64,000 nucleotides of DNA from Stutzerimonas nosocomialis (GTDB lineage: Bacteria > Pseudomonadota > Gammaproteobacteria > Pseudomonadales > Pseudomonadaceae). Below, piece after piece: positions 45,641 through 53,582 of this stretch. Position numbers and translations under genes: made by a program. The notes under the pieces are model-generated. The model saw nothing but the letters and a program-made list of their open reading frames with translations. It made no database searches and was not told the DNA's origin. Position 1 is the stretch's first letter, and every line of letters begins with the position of its first letter. The stretch covers positions 26,369-90,368 of the forward strand of contig NZ_QLAE01000018.1 in NCBI RefSeq assembly GCF_005876855.1, given 5' to 3'.

Positions 45641-48070
45641 TCAGCGCTGCTCGCGCCAGCAGGCCTGGCAGACGTTGAACTTGCGGTCGAGCAGGGGCAT
45701 CGGGCCGCCGCAGCGTTTGCAGGATTTGCTTTCGCCCGACAGGCGTCGCTGGTCGGACCTTCGCGGCCGCCGCTCGCGTGACAGTTCACGGGTGATGGCA
45801 TCGTTGAGCAGGCGCCGGTGTTCCTCGCCTTTTTCGATCTGCGGGAAGCGATCCGGCAGTACCCGGGCCAGGTGCAGGTAGGTCTCGATGACGTGCAGCG
45901 AACTCTCCAGCGTGGCCAGGTCGGCGTTGATGATCAGCCGCGGCAGGTCCACCGCCTGGCCGGCGGCGACACGTTTGAGCCACTGCTGGGCGAAGCCGCT
46001 GGCGGGGCTTTCCAGGCCGCCGCGGATCGGCGTGCAGGCGAACACCCAGCGCAGCCACATGTCGATGGCCGGGTCGTCGATCAGCTCGATCCATTGCGCC
46101 AGCTCGTCCGGCAGCACCGAAACGAAGGCCTCGCCGTAGTTGATGTTGCGGTTGAAGGTCAGCCAGGCGCGCATCAGGCTGGGCTCGTTCATCAGCTCGG
46201 CGATGGCGGTCAGGTGCTCGATGGACGGGCGCACCTGGAACTGCGAAAGGTCCACCGGCAGGTCCGGGCTGTTGAACAGCCGCTTGATGGTCTTGAGCAC
46301 GCTCGGGTCGAGGGCGGTGATGGTGCCGTTGTCGTGATGGCCGAAGCGCCCGGCGCGCCCGCCGATCTGCTTGACCTCCTGCACCTTGAGCTGACGGTTC
46401 TCGATGCCGTCGTACTTCTCGTCGGTGTAGAAGCACAGCGTGTGGGCCGGCAGGTTCAGGCCCATCCCCACCGCGTCGGTGGCGACCATGATCTGCGCTT
46501 CGCCTTCGCGGAAGCGACGTGCCTGTTCCCGGCGCACTTCCGGCGACAGGGCGCCATAGACCACCGCGACGCTCTTGCCGGTCATCTCCAGCAGGCCCTT
46601 GAGTTCGAGCACCGTCTTGCGGCTGAAGGCCACCAGCATCGAGCCTTCCTCCAGGTGCTTGAGCGTGGTCGAGTGGCGGGCCACGTCGACCGGGGAGAGC
46701 CGTTTGGTGCGCTGGATCACCAGACGGTCTTCGCACAGCTCGCAGAGCGTCTTGAGCGACGGCTCGATCAGCGCCGGGCCGGTCATCATCAGCTCCGGCG
46801 TGTAGGCGCTCACCAGCGCATCGACCCAGGCCCAGCCGCGTTGCGGGTCGGCCAGCAGCTGCACTTCGTCGACCACCACCACGTCCCAGTGCTGGTGGCG
46901 AAAGCGGGCGAACTCCTCGACCGTGCAGCAGAAGTGGGTGGCGCCTTCGCGGATGATTTCCTCCTCGCCGGTGACCAGCGAGCAGGGCACGCCCATGGAC
47001 TCGATGCGCTCCTGGTTCTCCAGCGCCATCAGCCGCAGGGGAGAGAGGTAGATGGCGTGCTTGACCGAGGTCATCGCTTCGATGGCGCGGTAGGTCTTGC
47101 CGCTGTTGGTCGGGCCGAGCAGCGCGGTCCACTTGCGGGTCAGCCGGCGTGCCGGGTAGAGCTCGTGGTAGTGGACGAAGCGCGGGTTGTTCTCCAGCAG
47201 CACGGCGAAGGCCATCCTTTCCTCGTGCTGCTGGCGCTCCCGGCGGATCGCCCGGCGCAGCTTGTGCGGCTCGAGCCAGAAGATTTCCACCAGGCGCTTG
47301 TGTTCGAGCTGGTGCAGATCGAAGCCCTGGGCTTCGCTCTGCATCAGGTCGAACTTGGCGCGCAGTTCGTCCTCGTCGCGGGCTTTCCAGGCTTCGACTT
47401 CCTGGTCGCTGAGCAGGTGGTCCTGGCCACCGGGGATGCGCCGCTGCACTTCGAGCGACAGGTCGCCCTGGCGCAGCTGTACCACGTAGCGCAGCTCGTG
47501 CCTGATCTCGTTGAGGATGTCGAAGGCCCTGGCCGCGAAGTCCTCGAGCCGGACGAACGCGGCGGGTATCCGCGCCAGCACCTGGGCGCGCTCTTGCTCG
47601 GTCAGCCGGGCGAAGGGGGCTTCGAGCATGGCCAGCCGTTCGCGCACCACGCCCTGGACGGCCAGCCGGGCGTTCTCCTCGAAGGCCTCGGGGGTGGCGC
47701 TGTCGGGGATGCGAAAGGCCCATTCGGGCTCCAGCAGGCCTTGCAGCGAACCCAGGCTGAAGGCTTTCTCGCTGCTGAACAGATCGACCGCGCACTGGAA
47801 AGCGTTGACGTCCCGGTTGAGCAGCCGGCCGATGAGCCCGGTCGGCTCCTGCAGGACGGCGTCCACCGCCGCCGGTTCCAGCCCGAGCCAGAACGCCTTG
47901 GCGGCGCGGCCTATGGCCGGTGGCTGGTAGCCGACGTAGAGGGTGAACCACTTTTCCTGGTGGTTCTTCTTCGGATTGAATTCGGGGTATCGCTCGCCGG
48001 CCCAGTCGAGGAAACGCTGGAGTCGTTCCTGCTTGAGGGATGAGCGCTGCTTGACTTCGACCTTGCGCAT
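45641..48070 (-). CDS. Suv3-like DExH RNA helicase with C-terminal zinc ribbon
   Basis: This 809-residue superfamily-2 helicase has motif I as GPTNSGKTYRAIEAM, the SUV3-type form, and motif II as VVVDEVQLLAD. Motif III, and motif VI with QIGGRAGRFG, place it next to mitochondrial Suv3. About 310 residues of alpha-helical sequence precede the helicase core. A C-terminal CxxC-x11-CxxC element (CKRCGGPMP and CQACW) forms a zinc ribbon. The ATG at 48070 follows GAGG; upstream frame is noise. RNA unwinding or turnover is likely; partner and substrate are unknown. Confidence 0.85.
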   Translation of the reverse strand: MRKVEVKQRSSLKQERLQRFLDWAGERYPEFNPKKNHQEKWFTLYVGYQPPAIGRAAKAFWLGLEPAAVDAVLQEPTGLIGRLLNRDVNAFQCAVDLFSSEKAFSLGSLQGLLEPEWAFRIPDSATPEAFEENARLAVQGVVRERLAMLEAPFARLTEQERAQVLARIPAAFVRLEDFAARAFDILNEIRHELRYVVQLRQGDLSLEVQRRIPGGQDHLLSDQEVEAWKARDEDELRAKFDLMQSEAQGFDLHQLEHKRLVEIFWLEPHKLRRAIRRERQQHEERMAFAVLLENNPRFVHYHELYPARRLTRKWTALLGPTNSGKTYRAIEAMTSVKHAIYLSPLRLMALENQERIESMGVPCSLVTGEEEIIREGATHFCCTVEEFARFRHQHWDVVVVDEVQLLADPQRGWAWVDALVSAYTPELMMTGPALIEPSLKTLCELCEDRLVIQRTKRLSPVDVARHSTTLKHLEEGSMLVAFSRKTVLELKGLLEMTGKSVAVVYGALSPEVRREQARRFREGEAQIMVATDAVGMGLNLPAHTLCFYTDEKYDGIENRQLKVQEVKQIGGRAGRFGHHDNGTITALDPSVLKTIKRLFNSPDLPVDLSQFQVRPSIEHLTAIAELMNEPSLMRAWLTFNRNINYGEAFVSVLPDELAQWIELIDDPAIDMWLRWVFACTPIRGGLESPASGFAQQWLKRVAAGQAVDLPRLIINADLATLESSLHVIETYLHLARVLPDRFPQIEKGEEHRRLLNDAITRELSRERRPRRSDQRRLSGESKSCKRCGGPMPLLDRKFNVCQACWREQR

Positions 48071-48212
48071 GATCGACGCCTCTTCTGATCGTGGCGGGCA
48101 AGCCGGCCGCTGGAGGGCAGCGGTTGGCATGGACGTTGGACATTGCGAAGGCGCCATCCTATCAGTGCCGACCGTGACGGCAGGATGGGCGGCTCACGAT
48201 CCTGGCAGAGAA

Positions 48213-49916
48213 CTAGATCATCGCGCGCTGGCGCAGGTGGTCGATCACCCGGTCGGCGAGCCGCTCGGCGGTTTCCTCGTCGGCGGGCAGACGCAGGTCG
48301 GGCGATGGCGGCGCCTCGTAGGGGCTGCCGATCCCGGTGAAGTTGGGCAACTGGCCGGCGCGTGCCTTCTTGTAGAGGCCCTTGGGATCGCGCGCTTCGC
48401 AGGTTTGCAGCGACGCGTCGACGAAGATCTCGACGAACTCGTCGGCCTCCAGCAGCTCGCGCACCATCTGCCGCTCGCTGCGAAACGGCGAGATGAAGCT
48501 GACCAGGGTGATCAGCCCGGCCTCGACCATCAGCTTGGCGACCTCGCCAACGCGGCGAATGTTCTCGACCCGGTCCTCGTCGGTGAAGCCCAGGTCGCGA
48601 TTCAGGCCGTGGCGCACGTTGTCGCCGTCCAGCAGCATGGTGCGCTTGCCCAGCGTCTGCAGGCGCTGTTCCACCAGGTCGGCGACCGTCGACTTGCCCG
48701 AGCCGGACAGCCCGGTGAACCACAGCACGCATGGCTGCTGGGCATTGCCGGCGGCGCGGCTGGCCTTGTCGATCTTCATCGCGTGGCGGTGGATGTTGGC
48801 GGCGCGCCGCAGGCCGAAGGCGACCATGCCGCAGGCGATGGTCGTCTGGCTGGTGTGGTCGAGCAGCTGGAAGGTGCCGGTGGCCGGCCGCTCGGTGCTC
48901 GGATCGAAGGGCAGGGCTCGGTCGATGGCCAGATTGCAGAAGGCCAGGTCGTTGCGGGTCAGGCGCTTGGCCGCGTGCCGTTCGAGGCTGTCCGGTTGCA
49001 GCCGATGCTTGATCTCGGTGACTCGCGCACCCACCAGCGTCTCGCCCAGGCGCAGCAGGTAGCGCCGTCCGGGGTACAGCGGTTGCTCGTCCAGCCACAG
49101 CAGGTGGGCGGCGAACTGGTCGGACACTTCCGGGCGCGCCTGGGGCGTCGCGATCAGGTCGCCGGGGGATACCGGCAGGGCGGGCTCCAGGGCGAAGCGC
49201 AGCAAGGGCCCGGCCGGCGAGTCGATGTATTGCAGGCGGGCCAGCCGCGACGGCGTGGCGCCCGGCAACACCACCACCTCATCGCCCGGATGTGGCGTGC
49301 CGGCCAGCAGCCGCGCGCAGTGGGGCAGCGCGTGGGCGGCGTCACAGGGCAGCGCGCGCAGGCGCAGCGGCTGCTCGGTAAGGGCCGGCGCGCAGTCTTC
49401 GAGTCGTTCGAGCAGGGGCAGGCCGCGGTACCAGGGCAGACGGGCGGAGCGCCGGTGGAGGTTGTCGCCGGTCTCGGCGTCCACCGGCACGGCCAGCAGC
49501 CGGGCGATGCCGATCTGCTCGCAATGGCGGCGGTATTGCCGTACCAGGCGGGCGAAGGCGTCCTCGCGCCAGTCGATGCGCGCCATCCGGTTGACCACCA
49601 GGACCAGCTGGCGCACCCCGAGCAGCGAGGCGACCAGCGCCAGGCGGTGCGCCTCCGCGTCGAGGCCGCTGGGCGCATCGACCACCACCACCGGCACCGT
49701 CGGCAGCGCATCGGCCAGCTGCGCGAACCAGTGGCCCGGCTGCGCGGCGTCGCTCAGGAGCATGCGCTGGCGGCTGTCGTCCGGATCGCCCCGCAGCCGG
49801 TCGAGGAGCTGCGTGACGCCCGCGTTCGGGCTGCCATGCACCAGCAGGCGGAACGGGCCGGGGCAGGGCTGCGGGACGCTGGCGGCTTCGAGGCGTAACG
49901 GGTTTGAGCGAGCCAT
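48213..49916 (-). CDS. Fusion of eroded CysN-like GTPase and intact adenylylsulfate kinase (CysC)
   Basis: This is a 567-residue two-part protein. Residues 1 to about 370 follow CysN, the GTPase subunit of ATP sulfurylase, including the [14 protein letters not shown] segment and the later beta-barrel domains. The P-loop, however, reads GSPNAGVT, lacking the lysine, and G3 and G4 are degraded, so GTP hydrolysis is unlikely. Residues 395-567 are a complete APS kinase: [32 protein letters not shown] and [11 protein letters not shown]. It would make PAPS from adenylylsulfate. No cysD adjoins it. It lies 23 bp after the sulfotransferase gene and ends the operon. Confidence 0.88.
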
Positions 49917-49939
49917 CTGGGTTCCCCTGCGCAGTGCTG

Positions 49940-51094
49940 TCAGCCGACCTGTTGCACCCTGTCGGTCTGTCCATAGCCGAATCGTGCCGCGACCGGGCCG
50001 GTGATGGTCTGGATCATCGCCCGTTCCTCGGCGCTGAATTCGGGTTGGTAATAGGTCGGCGCATGCAGCCCCGCCGCGGCCTGGTCGATCGTCTCGGCGG
50101 GAAAGGCCAGCTCGCCGTGGGCCAGCACCCGTTCGAGGGTCTCGCGCGGCGTCCCGCACAGGTCTTCGTAGCGCACCACCAGGCACGCCTCGCGCAGCGC
50201 GGGGTCCGCCTCCAGGGTGTCGGCCAGGTGGCGGTAGACATCGGCCCAGTAGCGGGCCCAGCCCTCGACTTCCTGGCCGTCGCGCCAGAGCTGCCGGACC
50301 CGCTCGGTGCTGGCCGGGTTGCCGAGGTTCATCGGCCGGCGGTCCAGGCCGAATTCGTAGTGGCCGACCCGGCGCATGTGTTCCAGCGCCCGGGGCTCCC
50401 GGGTTTCGCCGGTGGTGAAGAGCGCCTGCTGCTTGATCAGCGAGGCGATGTGCCAGACCGGGTCGCGTATCGCCAGGATGAAGCACGCCTGGGGGTAGAG
50501 CCGGTGCAGGTAGCCCAGCCGGGCGAGGTTGTAGTTGCCTTTGGCGAGGTAGCGCTGGCGCTTGCGGATGGCCAGCAGCTTGCGCAGGTGGTCGTCGTAG
50601 AAACGCTCGAACAGCGGATGGCGTTCGTCGCGTCCGAGTACCGAGCTGCGGGCCGGGTCGTGGGCGTCGGGGAAGAAGCCCATCCAGATCATCTCCTCGA
50701 AGGCCTCGGGGCTTTGCGAGGTGATGGCGATGCCGTCCTTGTGGGCGCGCTCCTTGGCCGCTTCCTCCTTCTGCGGCACCAGCGACAGCCAGCGGTTCCA
50801 CCAGTAGGGCGTGAACACCGGCGGGAAGTCCGCATAGCGGTGGCTGGCCACGTCGGGGTGGCTGGCCAGCTGTTCGAGCAGGATGGTGGTGCCGGAGCGG
50901 GCGAGGCCCGCGACATAGATCGGCCGGTCGATGCGAATGTCGACCAGGGTGTCTTCCAGCAGGCGGCTTTCCAGATTGCCGAAGCGGATCCAGGTCTGCG
51001 GGTAGCGGTGGATCCAGCCGCTGAGCAGGTGCATCCAGGTCGGTACGTCGAACGCCGGATCGGCTGTTTCGTTCCTGGGGGTCTGCGCGCTCAT
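49940..51094 (-). CDS. PAPS-dependent sulfotransferase family protein
   Basis: This 384-residue cytosolic sulfotransferase has a PAPS-binding loop [21 protein letters not shown] (around residues 60-80) and the 3'-phosphate-binding region [34 protein letters not shown] is the third typical segment. Acceptor specificity cannot be predicted. Its start overlaps the stop of the upstream membrane-protein gene by four bases, and an APS kinase gene follows, which would supply its co-substrate. Confidence 0.88.
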
Positions 51095-51807
51095 TCGATG
51101 CGTGCCCAACGGTAGGTGAGCAGCGAGGCGAGCATCATGCAAGGCAGCAACAGCGCCAGCCAGGTGCGCATCCACGACGGGCCGAACGGCAGGTAGGAGC
51201 GCTCGGGCAGGCCGATCTCGACGCGCTGCACGGCGTTGTCGTCGGGCAGGTAGCCGAGCGGGTTGCCCAGCAGCCAGTTCCACCAGTGGCGCTGTTCGAT
51301 CACGGTGATCGGCGCGGTGAGTTCGATGTCCAGCCAGTCGCTGTCGGGCAGGTTGATCCGCACGATGGGTATCTCGCCGTCGCCGAACCACTCGGCATAG
51401 AAGGGCTCCGGCGCGACGTTCATCGCCGGTGCCTCGTCGGCGCGCGGGTATTCGTGGCTGTAGGTCTGGTCCAGCCAGCTGAGCAATGCCAGCAGCGGCA
51501 GCATGGAGATCAGGGTCGGCAGGGTGACCAGGCCCAGATGGCGGAAGGCGGCGCCGAACTGGGCGCGGATCAGCGGACCGGCTTCGCTCATCTCGCCATC
51601 GAAATCGTTGAGCCGCCGGCGGGCCTCGCGTGCCTCGCGCTTGGCGCGGCCAATCGAGGCCTGGGGGGAAATCACACGGTACAGCAGCAGCGTGCCGGCG
51701 CCGCCGATCGCGGCCCAGACCAGCAGCCGCGCGGTGTCGGGCAGTGCCGAGGCCATGGCGTCGTCGACGGCGGCGAACAATGGCGCAGGAAGGTTCAGTA
51801 GTCCCAT
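51091..51807 (-). CDS. Three-helix membrane protein of the sulfation operon
   Basis: This 238-residue protein has a transmembrane helix at about 27-45, a charged coiled-coil stretch ([19 protein letters not shown]), a second helix at 93-112, an aromatic extracytoplasmic region of about 95 residues, and a final helix at 214-234. The TM, coiled coil, TM order recalls EMC3/DUF106 members of the Oxa1 superfamily. This is a topology comparison, not a proven relationship. It overlaps the sulfotransferase gene by four bases. Confidence 0.7.
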
Positions 51808-51891
51808 AGGTCCCTCGTGTTCAGGGCCAGGATCGGCAGGGGCTTCGGCCGGCGTGGCGGCCGGGGTGCACCACCACGCCGGCGCCGGCCA

Positions 51892-52236
51892 TCAGAGGCG
51901 GCCGTGGGTGCCGGTGGCTTTTTCCTCGACGGGCACTTGCGGCAGCGCCTCGCCCGGCTCGGCCTCGCGGGCCTGGACCACCGGCGTTTCGGCTAGTGGG
52001 GAAGTGGAACTGGCGGCGGCCATCTGTTCGGCCTTGCGCCGCCGACGCATGCGCCGGATCGGCCACATCACGATGTAGATCACCGCCACGCCGACGGCGG
52101 CGAGCAGCCCCCAGAGCGCGGCGAGCAGCCCGAGTCCGGCACCGGGGCCGACGTAGGCATGGGCCGCGAGGGGCAGGGTGGTGAGAAGCAGCCCGGTGAT
52201 CAGGGCCTTGGGGAATCGCTTGGTGTCAGCGGTCAT
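51892..52236 (-). CDS. Small membrane protein with AYVGPGAG motif
   Basis: This 114-residue protein has a signal-like first helix ending PLAAHA. AYVGPGAGLGLLAALWGLLAA then leads into a second helix, an Arg-rich cytosolic stop (RRMRRRRK) and a charged tail. The ATG at 52236 is preferred because AGGTGA lies five bases upstream; an ATG three codons earlier has no spacing. It starts five bases after the arylsulfotransferase-like gene, so it is cotranscribed. Function unknown. Confidence 0.7.
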   Translation of the reverse strand: MTADTKRFPKALITGLLLTTLPLAAHAYVGPGAGLGLLAALWGLLAAVGVAVIYIVMWPIRRMRRRRKAEQMAAASSTSPLAETPVVQAREAEPGEALPQVPVEEKATGTHGRL

Positions 52237-52241
52237 GACAT

Positions 52242-53582
52242 TCACCTTTGCTGAGGATTGTCGATAACGGCGCGGAAGTCCTTGTCGAATTCTCCAACAG
52301 AGAAGCGTTGTCCTGACGAGACGATCGGAATGTAACGGTCCTGGTCTCCACCGCGGATCGGGTTGATGAACTCCCAGGCGATCTCGCCTGCGGGCGTCAC
52401 TTCGAAGAGCCGACCGCCATCGGATTCATTGATCAGGCGGTTGCCGTTGGGCAGGGTCTGGGCCGAGCTGCGCACATAGCTGTCGAACGGATGTTCATCG
52501 TTTCCCGCGTAGCTCCAGACAATCGCATGGGTGCGAGGGTTCACTTCCAGCACCCGCGCGGCGTTGCCGACCTGATAATTGGCGGCGTTGTCGAACAGCG
52601 TGAAGTTGCCGTTGGGCAGCGCCCGCGCATCGTGCTGCACGATCCACGGGCCGCGCGTCGCCCAGGTCATCTCGCCGGTTTCAGGATCGACCAGGGCCAC
52701 GGTGCCGATGTTGCGAAAGGAAATCAGCACCTGGCCCGGACGCCCCTGTGCCGGGGCGAAGGCGGCGCTGAGGGTCTCGTCCAGGTAGTGCACGCTGTTG
52801 GCGTGCAGCGGGTCGGAACCGGCGTAGGCGGGCGTCTGGTAGACCGGCTCGGCGAACGGCGAGTCGAGGAACGCCCTGGCCAGCGACACCTTGCTCAGCT
52901 CCTCGCCGGTCTGGCCGTCGAGCACCACCAGGAAGTCGTCCAGCCACGGCCGTTCCAGCCCCTGCAGACCGGGGATGTCGTCTTCGCTGAGGTCGTGGGT
53001 GAGGGTCACGACGCGCCCGTCGGGCGTCAGGTGCAGGTCGTGGTGGGTCGGCCCGTGGTAGGCCCAGATCAGTTTCGAGTCGCGGTCGATGCGGATCAGC
53101 CCATAGCCCCAGGGCGTGTCGTTGTCGGCGGTGATCACCACCAGCAGGTCGCCGTTGGGCATCAGCCGCGCCTTGTCCCAGTAGATGCGATCGGCATCGC
53201 GCGGCGCGCGGCCGCTGGGGCTCTTGTCCCAGATCTGGTCGTAGGGCAGTTCCCAGCGGTGCACCACCTTGCCCTGCATGTCGATCAGCTGGGCGTAGCT
53301 GCCGTCGCCGGAGGTGTAGAGCGTGACGCCCTCGTAGGCCTGGCCCGGTTCGTGGAGGGTCACGCCGCGGTCGTCGCGTCGCGCCTCGCGCCACAGGTGG
53401 GTCTCGGTGTACAGGTCGGTGGCCGACAGCTGGCTGAGCAGCGCGTGTCCGGCTCTGTAGGCGTCGTTGAAATAGCGGTAGGGGAAGGTCTTGGAGAGCG
53501 CCACGAACGCACCGGCCACGAAGGCGATGAACACGATGGCCACGAAGAAAAGGGTAAATCCGATCCGATCCGATCGATCCAT
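52242..53582 (-). CDS. Arylsulfotransferase-family beta-propeller protein, membrane-anchored
   Basis: This 446-residue protein has an uncleaved-looking N-terminal anchor (residues about 8-30) and a beta-propeller facing the periplasm. Family motifs are HHDLHLTPDG (180-189), QHDARALPNGNFTLFDNAAN (317-336), and SSAQTLPNGNRLINESDGGR. The same pattern is seen in ASST enzymes, which move sulfate between phenols without PAPS, and in many relatives of unknown function. The ATG at 53582 has GGAGG upstream. It is the first gene of a five-gene operon that also encodes a PAPS-dependent sulfotransferase and an APS kinase. Confidence 0.8.
   Translation of the reverse strand: MDRSDRIGFTLFFVAIVFIAFVAGAFVALSKTFPYRYFNDAYRAGHALLSQLSATDLYTETHLWREARRDDRGVTLHEPGQAYEGVTLYTSGDGSYAQLIDMQGKVVHRWELPYDQIWDKSPSGRAPRDADRIYWDKARLMPNGDLLVVITADNDTPWGYGLIRIDRDSKLIWAYHGPTHHDLHLTPDGRVVTLTHDLSEDDIPGLQGLERPWLDDFLVVLDGQTGEELSKVSLARAFLDSPFAEPVYQTPAYAGSDPLHANSVHYLDETLSAAFAPAQGRPGQVLISFRNIGTVALVDPETGEMTWATRGPWIVQHDARALPNGNFTLFDNAANYQVGNAARVLEVNPRTHAIVWSYAGNDEHPFDSYVRSSAQTLPNGNRLINESDGGRLFEVTPAGEIAWEFINPIRGGDQDRYIPIVSSGQRFSVGEFDKDFRAVIDNPQQR

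Follow-up and report, generated by a model that had tools for sequence, protein, structure and literature searches.

A probable envelope sulfation cassette in Stutzerimonas nosocomialis, with a four-gene core that combines a PAPS-dependent sulfotransferase and a membrane-anchored arylsulfotransferase-type propeller

The window analyzed here, a stretch of 64,000 nucleotides of contig NZ_QLAE01000018.1 from Stutzerimonas nosocomialis, carries on its minus strand, at positions 48213..53582, five open reading frames in the order arylsulfotransferase-type β-propeller (ASST), AYVGPGAG protein, three-helix membrane protein, sulfotransferase and CysN-like/CysC fusion. The preliminary description of this DNA had claimed five minus-strand genes with junctions of 5, 84, -4 and 23 bp, and genes and junctions are confirmed at this place; the first junction, between the ASST and AYVGPGAG genes, becomes -4 bp if an in-frame GTG is the start codon. 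The features are listed below with their basis.

52242..53582, minus strand: ASST, arylsulfotransferase-type β-propeller, membrane-anchored, 446 aa (Pfam PF14269, PF05935)
51892..52245, minus strand: AYVGPGAG protein, start at GTG 52245 or ATG 52236 (alignment of 18 members)
51808..51891, minus strand: 84-bp gap with a strong GC-rich stem-loop (folding energy and z score)
51091..51807, minus strand: three-helix membrane protein, first half resembling archaeal YidC (profile match to 5c8j)
49940..51094, minus strand: PAPS-dependent sulfotransferase, 384 aa (Pfam PF13469)
48213..49916, minus strand: CysN remnant (residues ~1-365) fused to an intact CysC/APS kinase (residues ~366-567) (Pfam, key residues, CysN alignment)

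The stem-loop in the gap between the AYVGPGAG and three-helix genes has a folding energy of -48.6 kcal/mol (z -3.4) and is without a T-run. Average hydropathy gives one membrane span for the ASST, two for the AYVGPGAG protein and three for the three-helix protein. A reading as phage defence was dropped, as none of the five operon proteins was matched by PADLOC, and so was one as assimilatory sulfate reduction, as the housekeeping cysD-cysNC genes lie on a different contig (C6).

The ASST matches Pfam families PF14269 (Arylsulfotran_2, E 4.3e-32, residues 140-407 of 446) and PF05935 (E 9e-10), and its single N-terminal membrane span covers residues ~11-29. Alignments of 27 and 25 members show His180, His181, His260, Asn262, Arg290, His317 and Arg371 to be invariant, as is the pair Gln316-His317, where the motif QHD lines up with PDB entry 9kf6; the match of the ASST profile to 9kf6/9kf4 (named "Sulfotransferase") is weak (E 1e-5). 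A known counterpart is the periplasmic AssT of E. coli CFT073 (EcAST), an arylsulfotransferase β-propeller outside the inner membrane, as the cassette ASST would be; EcAST has the active site residues His252, His356, Asn358, Arg374, His436 and Thr501 and is described as using ping-pong chemistry via a sulfated histidine (PMC13426309). However, EcAST is periplasmic and lies in an operon with DsbL/DsbI, whereas the cassette ASST has a membrane anchor and a PAPS sulfotransferase alongside, with no Dsb gene in the operon. According to PMC13426309, what most bacterial ASSTs naturally transfer sulfate to has yet to be identified, and their role is poorly understood; the cassette links an ASST to a likely sulfate supply within one operon.

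The sulfotransferase matches PF13469 (Sulfotransfer_3, E 3.5e-22), and its 20 aligned members have in common Arg66, Gly68 and Thr70 as well as Arg210 and Ser218, in the 5′-PSB and 3′-PB motifs. As for the fusion, the earlier statement that the last gene makes PAPS holds for the step from APS to PAPS and fails for the formation of APS. Its CysC half matches Pfam APS_kinase with E 6e-67 and is identical to Arabidopsis APK1 at 14 of 14 checked positions; the residues assigned roles in APS kinase include the P-loop Lys, Asp480, Lys562, Arg483, Arg497, Ser524 and two Phe, among others (M. tuberculosis numbering, PMC4373884). In each of the 18 cassette genomes tested there is a CysC in which the catalytic Asp and Lys are both present. 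Gln occupies both catalytic positions in three CysC copies, which are the housekeeping CysN-CysC fusions of the three Pseudomonadaceae, and the kinase half of these fusions looks dead, with two catalytic residues gone; for this reason the operon kinase would be the supplier of PAPS in Pseudomonadaceae.

The CysN half of the operon fusion is, judged by its residues, a dead GTPase. The Lys of its P-loop (GxxxxGK[ST]) is replaced in 6/6 aligned cassette copies and kept in the housekeeping copy, a stretch after the G domain is missing in L030 and L051, and the whole half is absent in five of ten family relatives, so that APS would have to come from the housekeeping CysD-CysN. In the other five relatives an open CysN-like frame is kept, as would be expected if the remnant docked the APS kinase on CysD and channeled APS to it, but the residue losses, the deletions and the relatives wholly without a CysN half all speak against such docking, and we regard it as improbable. 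The operon fusion has the CysN-CysC domain order of its assimilatory counterparts and an intact APS kinase half; it differs from them in that the GTPase half is dead or absent, no CysD lies alongside and the kinase is tied to a sulfotransferase. Taken with the dead-looking housekeeping kinase, the decay of the CysN half suggests that a branch of sulfur metabolism is shifting from assimilation to a dedicated operon.

Conservation was followed through 39 loci, namely those located via the three-helix protein. The AYVGPGAG and sulfotransferase genes are found near the three-helix gene in all 39, and the ASST is linked in 32, with a single gene order in all 32. A class sample of eight other genomes gave similar counts (AYVGPGAG 8/8, sulfotransferase 8/8, ASST 7/8). 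A phylum sample gave one more match, on a contig as long as that of the L041 genome, and this match was left out of the counts. The search for the five-gene order in Pseudomonadaceae that had been proposed earlier found it in 10/10 other family genomes having the three-helix protein, with the ASST split across two frames in one of them (PIC25). Such recurrence, together with that of the first four genes in 32/39 loci, is more than chance. The kinase gene is beside the cassette in Pseudomonadaceae only (8/39 loci), and a fixed five-gene unit was dropped on this account; the conserved unit, as defined by these neighborhoods, is a four-gene core of ASST, AYVGPGAG protein, three-helix protein and PAPS-dependent sulfotransferase. 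Sulfotransferase and kinase in separate conserved operons in relatives had been named beforehand as a finding against the proposal, and as regards the kinase gene such separation is seen outside the Pseudomonadaceae, while inside the family the kinase gene adjoins the core. What had been called a dedicated sulfation system retains its PAPS user, its intact APS kinase and its membrane-anchored propeller, with a core of four genes instead of five. A search of 72,556 plasmid records returned one three-helix relative at E 1e-5, in Paroceanicella, and the idea of a plasmid-borne cassette was dropped.

The AYVGPGAG protein has a signal-peptide-like start ending in A-x-A, Tyr31 directly after it, the GPGAG motif, one membrane span and a basic tail, and gave nothing above a cut-off against Pfam. 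Its 18 aligned members have invariant Ala28, Tyr31, Gly33, Pro34, Gly35, Ala36, Gly37, Leu41, Ala54, Trp61, Pro62 and Arg64; the tyrosine is preceded by A-x-A in 17 of them and by A-V-S in one, and the copy of L067, outside this alignment, reads AYSGPGSG. The three-helix protein, which has no match in Pfam, has its first two spans joined by a helical stretch and its last two by ~100 residues. Its profile matches one PDB sequence, the archaeal YidC MJ0480 (5c8j), with E 1.7e-5 over residues 3-117, that is, limited to the first two spans and what lies between them; the next PDB match has E 0.86. None of 5000 segment-wise and none of 5000 local shuffles reached 26.0 bits (best 18.3 and 19.5), and hhalign gives a probability of 66-75%. 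PF01956 (EMC3_TMCO1) matched 0/26 members of the three-helix family. The likeness to MJ0480 and Oxa1 covers the start, span 1, the helical hairpin and span 2, within a total of three spans (as described in PMC8675477), whereas the ~100 residues that separate spans 2 and 3 are extra, and the protein is bacterial and part of a sulfation cassette. We conclude that the three-helix protein in part resembles archaeal YidC and is a candidate member of the Oxa1 superfamily. Should the resemblance be borne out, a fold of the Oxa1 type would serve in the transfer of small molecules, a point relevant to the lipid scrambling reported for insertases (PMC10491306). Elsewhere in the window genome, PF01956 has one weak match (E 0.2, contig C5).

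The gene set, its conservation, the residue states of kinase and CysN and the partial MJ0480 match are read from the sequence. It is very probable that the cassette is an envelope sulfation system, and we hold it an even call that sulfation runs as a two-stage relay. In such a relay, the housekeeping CysD-CysN would make APS, which in Pseudomonadaceae the operon kinase would convert to PAPS; the sulfotransferase, presumably cytoplasmic, would place the PAPS sulfate on a membrane-borne carrier (a phenol or a lipid alcohol); the YidC-like three-helix protein and the AYVGPGAG protein would deliver the sulfated carrier, or the head that bears the sulfate, at the periplasmic face; and the membrane-anchored ASST would take the sulfate onto a histidine and pass it to a periplasmic acceptor. 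We infer the movement of a sulfated molecule by the two membrane proteins, a proposal made more specific by the partial archaeal YidC match of one of them; that the three-helix protein itself is the mover of the carrier is put forward tentatively. Reading the listed flanks by eye gave no recurrent gene for making such a carrier, which counts against the relay. A precedent is Cpz8/Cpz4 of caprazamycin biosynthesis in Streptomyces, reported as a PAPS-dependent and then PAPS-independent relay (PMC6731281), in which a PAPS sulfotransferase charges a carrier and an ASST-type enzyme, Cpz4, passes the sulfate on, with a preference for sugar hydroxyls (PMC13426309). Both systems hold the two enzyme types in one cluster (here in 32/39 loci); the Cpz carrier, however, is a triketide pyrone and its setting an antibiotic cluster, whereas the cassette has two membrane proteins in its core and occurs in many genera.

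The best candidate for the acceptor would be osmoregulated periplasmic glucan (OPG), that is, β-1,2-glucans, for which the evidence is circumstantial. An OpgD-type gene is linked to the cassette in 11/39 loci, eight of the linked copies grouping in a clade that excludes 17 others, and a PF10091 gene adjoins one further cassette; among the Pseudomonadaceae cassettes, linked OpgD is found at 0/8 loci. An MdoG-family match is present in 17/20 cassette genomes, the three without one being those of P. indica, Parvibaculum indicum and L067, and in the window genome the MdoG gene is on a different contig (C26). In two classes in which MdoG-family genes are rare, they are over-represented among cassette genomes: in alphaproteobacteria MdoG occurs in 4/5 cassette genomes and 16/141 others, and in Desulfobacteraceae in 2/2 and 4/116, counts uncorrected for kinship and genome size, and in the latter case from two MAGs that may be contaminated. 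That OPG is a main acceptor seems to us possible, with the balance tipped against it. OpgB, OpgC and OpgE decorate OPG in the periplasm with charged groups taken from a membrane donor, and the proposed relay would be analogous in moving a charged group from such a donor to the glucan. The group here would be sulfate, which is not among the OPG substituents named in PMC10514313 (phosphoglycerol, succinate and phosphoethanolamine). As a whole, a two-stage envelope cassette with OPG as candidate acceptor is our best explanation, at about equal chances of being right or wrong. Its most specific form is unlikely: here a bacterial YidC relative of archaeal type would have become the flippase for a sulfated lipid carrier, and the membrane-anchored ASST would sulfate periplasmic β-1,2-glucans. 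If true, lipid-linked OPG decoration would have a counterpart that uses sulfate, and an envelope ASST would have a natural role.

The same relay could serve a sulfated capsule or exopolysaccharide at the surface, which we consider rather unlikely. Many cassette hosts belong to genera that we take to be marine or salt-loving, and the three genomes with no MdoG match would fit such an acceptor. Sulfated capsules of marine bacteria have been reported (PMC11641403, PMC11766843), but a glycosyltransferase or capsule cluster recurring beside the cassette was not seen by eye among the flanks listed.

Less probable is a single stage, with the sulfotransferase product (lipid or metabolite) exported as is and a separate ASST acting on outside aryl sulfates. 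Three Salinicola loci keep the other three core genes together without the ASST, and contig L026 (9 kb, from the same taxonomic order as the window) has the three-helix and sulfotransferase genes, preceded by 7.8 kb with no AYVGPGAG or ASST match, as such a scheme would allow; L026 also counts against the relay. However, the three Salinicola genomes still encode an ASST elsewhere (44% identity), and it is difficult to account for linkage in 32/39 loci and 7/8 class-sample genomes unless the enzymes share a path.

A tyrosine route is very improbable. In it the sulfotransferase or the ASST would sulfate Tyr31, which would be the first residue of the mature AYVGPGAG protein, and the YidC-like protein would insert this product. 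In its favor, tyrosylprotein sulfotransferases make up seven of the eight weak PDB matches that the sulfotransferase has (best E 2.8e-6), Tyr31 is fully conserved and the A-x-A before it nearly so. Against it, these seven matches span 26-46 residues, cleavage is deduced solely from the motif, contig L026 carries no AYVGPGAG match, spending a protein molecule on each sulfate would be costly, and no acidic residues lie beside Tyr31, which tyrosylprotein sulfotransferases usually want.

The unlinked Salinicola ASST adjoins genes that we read by eye as biotin synthesis, and was dropped as a source of functional clues on account of these neighbors. Two genomes have no ASST match, and there the cassette genes are accompanied by genes of the phosphodiesterase and sulfatase families, one of which is common to both genomes at 49%.

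The five genes lie on the minus strand with junctions of 5 (or -4), 84, -4 and 23 bp, an arrangement already put forward in the preliminary description, in which the first junction was given as 5 bp. Pfam and NCBIfam supply family names for three of them: an arylsulfotransferase-type propeller (ASST, PF14269), Sulfotransfer_3, and an APS kinase domain (CysC) preceded by a CysN-like region that scores under the CysN cut-offs. Neither library gives the AYVGPGAG protein or the three-helix protein a match above cut-off. The nearest cassette seen is in a relative's stretch, L017, at 88-96% identity, protein by protein.

53582-48213, minus strand: ASST, AYVGPGAG protein, three-helix protein, sulfotransferase, CysN-like/CysC.
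51808-51891: gap between the AYVGPGAG and three-helix genes, with a strong GC-rich stem-loop (z -3.4) lacking a T-run.
45641-48157: large gene after the cassette, helicase-like by reading.

A role of the stem-loop in mRNA processing or translation control is possible; the same gap in seven relatives gives fold z-scores of only -0.7 to -2.2. A helicase-like gene, again by reading, also follows the cassette in three relatives (L029, L030 and L031).

The conserved unit is four genes. Loci were searched for with the family-less three-helix protein as marker, whose own presence is thus 100% by construction. It occurs in 11 of 398 host-family genomes including the window's own (an earlier family look at 97 genomes overlaps this set), and the other 10 all carry the five genes in order, although in one the ASST is divided between two reading frames. 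The proposed five-gene order thus holds among family relatives, but CysC stands beside the cassette only in Pseudomonadaceae (8 of 39 loci). These 39 loci come from a scan of named species genomes, their eight Pseudomonadaceae being largely the same genomes as the family set, and were used to build profiles for the AYVGPGAG protein, sulfotransferase and ASST in three rounds. The AYVGPGAG protein and the sulfotransferase are each found in 39/39 loci, and the ASST in 32/39, in identical order in all 32, which include a contig-edge fragment (L059) and a split gene (L051:8257-9611, Pseudomonas sp. PIC25), which may be either genuinely broken or a sequencing artefact. In a class sample drawn by the tool and not by gene order, 9 of 369 genomes, the window's own included, have the marker; all eight further ones carry the AYVGPGAG, three-helix and sulfotransferase genes and seven the ASST, which is reversed and behind the sulfotransferase in two, while the genome lacking it has its cassette on a 3.1-kb contig. 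A phylum sample yielded 2 of 299 genomes, one being the window's own and the other, complete, taken as that of stretch L041. A Paroceanicella plasmid carries the four genes without the kinase. The patchy distribution among genomes, together with flanks that, where they could be seen, vary between genera save for genes common to related groups, points to a patchy, mostly self-contained cassette of proteobacteria and Desulfobacteraceae. Many of the cassette-bearing genera are marine or salt-loving.

The cassette CysC, used as query in 18 cassette genomes (those of loci L056 and L067 left out), gave 29 matches, of which 27 were aligned; the two left aside are short, weak hits in the window genome. 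The catalytic residues described for the M. tuberculosis APS kinase (PMC4373884), Asp480 and Lys562, are kept in 24 of the 27. The remaining three, with Gln at both sites, are the housekeeping CysN-CysC fusions of all three Pseudomonadaceae examined, that of the window genome (L027:5449-7350) among them; this assimilatory fusion looks, from its residues, unable to make PAPS. Among full-length matches in the window genome, the cassette CysC alone carries both residues; additional copies that keep them occur in P. indica and Stutzerimonas NT0128. The P-loop lysine of the cassette CysN half is replaced in 6/6 aligned copies and kept in the housekeeping copy, and the half is missing from the cassette gene in 5 of 10 family relatives. 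On the simplest account, Pseudomonadaceae, with an assimilatory fusion apparently unable to supply PAPS, would keep an APS kinase alongside the PAPS user, and the cassette CysN half would be in decay. Outside the family, all 15 genomes tested have a CysC with both residues, and none was found near the cassette in the stretches examined around the loci. Close to cysD, the window genome also has a group II intron reverse transcriptase-like gene, judged by eye (L027:10203-12104).

A closer look at the ASST revealed H180-H181, H260-x-N262, R290, Q316-H317 and R371 to be invariant in all aligned members, a pattern recalling His252, His356, Asn358, Arg374 and His436 of the E. coli CFT073 arylsulfotransferase EcAST (PMC13426309). 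The sulfotransferase keeps R66, G68, T70, R210 and S218 in 20/20 members; its PDB matches are weak, over short stretches, and mostly to tyrosylprotein sulfotransferases. In caprazamycin biosynthesis (PMC6731281, PMC13426309), a PAPS enzyme passes sulfate to an ASST that sulfates a sugar, and we call the cassette a putative PAPS-to-ASST relay, a kind already known.

Judged by hydropathy across the alignments, the three-helix protein crosses the membrane three times, at roughly 28-46, 91-109 and 217-235. Its profile has one good PDB match, the archaeal YidC MJ0480 (5c8j; E 1.7e-5, the next being at 0.86), covering the start, span 1, a helical hairpin and span 2. The real MJ0480 stretch scores 26.0 bits, against maxima of 18.3 for within-segment shuffles and 19.5 for shuffling in six-residue steps (5000 trials each) and 5.9 for the reversed stretch. 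MJ0480 as query reaches YidC2 at E 0.022, with unrelated matches from E 0.06. Counting against the kinship, the Pfam EMC3_TMCO1 model matched 0 of 26 members and hhalign gave 66-75% for the pair. The Oxa1 superfamily core is described in PMC8675477 as three membrane helices with a cytoplasmic hairpin, and heterodimers as predicted in archaea and present in eukaryotes, none of that kind being given there for bacteria; lipid scrambling by insertases of the superfamily has been reported (PMC10491306). In 17 of 18 members of the AYVGPGAG protein the tyrosine comes immediately after an A-x-A signal-peptide end, and in the other after A-V-S.

An OpgD/MdoG-family gene faces the sulfotransferase in 11/39 loci (Salinicola 7/7, Alcanivorax/Alloalcanivorax 3/3, Litchfieldella 1/2) and in none of the eight Pseudomonadaceae loci. 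In a tree of eight linked and 17 other copies, all from cassette genomes, the linked ones form one clade (support 100) apart from their hosts' other copies; the cassette tree (37 of the 39 loci and the window) joins Salinicola and Alcanivorax at 100 and places Litchfieldella elsewhere, with Marinobacter. One Desulfobacteraceae locus adjoins a gene of PF10091, a family that includes beta-1,2-glucanases (GH144). MdoG is found in 17/20 cassette genomes. In the two groups covered by the background, it occurs in 4/5 alphaproteobacterial cassette genomes versus 16/141 others (one match short and partial; Fisher p 0.001, kinship and genome size ignored) and in 2/2 of the Desulfobacteraceae's class, MAGs that may be impure, versus 4/116 (p 0.002, likewise ignoring both). 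Three genomes with cassette genes, those of P. indica, Parvibaculum indicum and locus L067, gave no MdoG match, so the osmoregulated periplasmic glucan (OPG) would be at most one acceptor. PMC10514313 describes E. coli OpgG and OpgD as beta-1,2-glucanases, and sulfate does not appear among the substituents it lists for OPG. A YidC-like flippase and a sulfated periplasmic glucan, both unproven, would be newer than the known relay. Among the papers listed for the gene combination, for two-step sulfation and for sulfated OPG, with most subscription journals outside coverage, no title or abstract opening describes this cassette, a silence that is weak evidence of absence.

Seven of the 39 loci have no neighbouring ASST: two at contig edges (L053, L058), three in Salinicola genomes that carry one elsewhere (44% identity), and L065 and L067, whose genomes gave no ASST match anywhere. 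In this variant (L065:892-6360; L067:6645-12594, some genes on the opposite strand) a PF01663 phosphodiesterase-type gene (Pfam call on the L065 copy, the L067 copy being 49% identical) is interspersed with the three-helix, AYVGPGAG-type and sulfotransferase genes, and sulfatase-family genes (PF00884) are found nearby. Against the four-gene rule, L026, a contig of 9 kb from a member of the host's order, has three-helix and sulfotransferase genes at 1-1182 and no AYVGPGAG or ASST profile match. Within L146:1859-7392, a second, more distant Salinicola ASST (35% identity) stands not far from a gene that by eye is choline-sulfatase-like.
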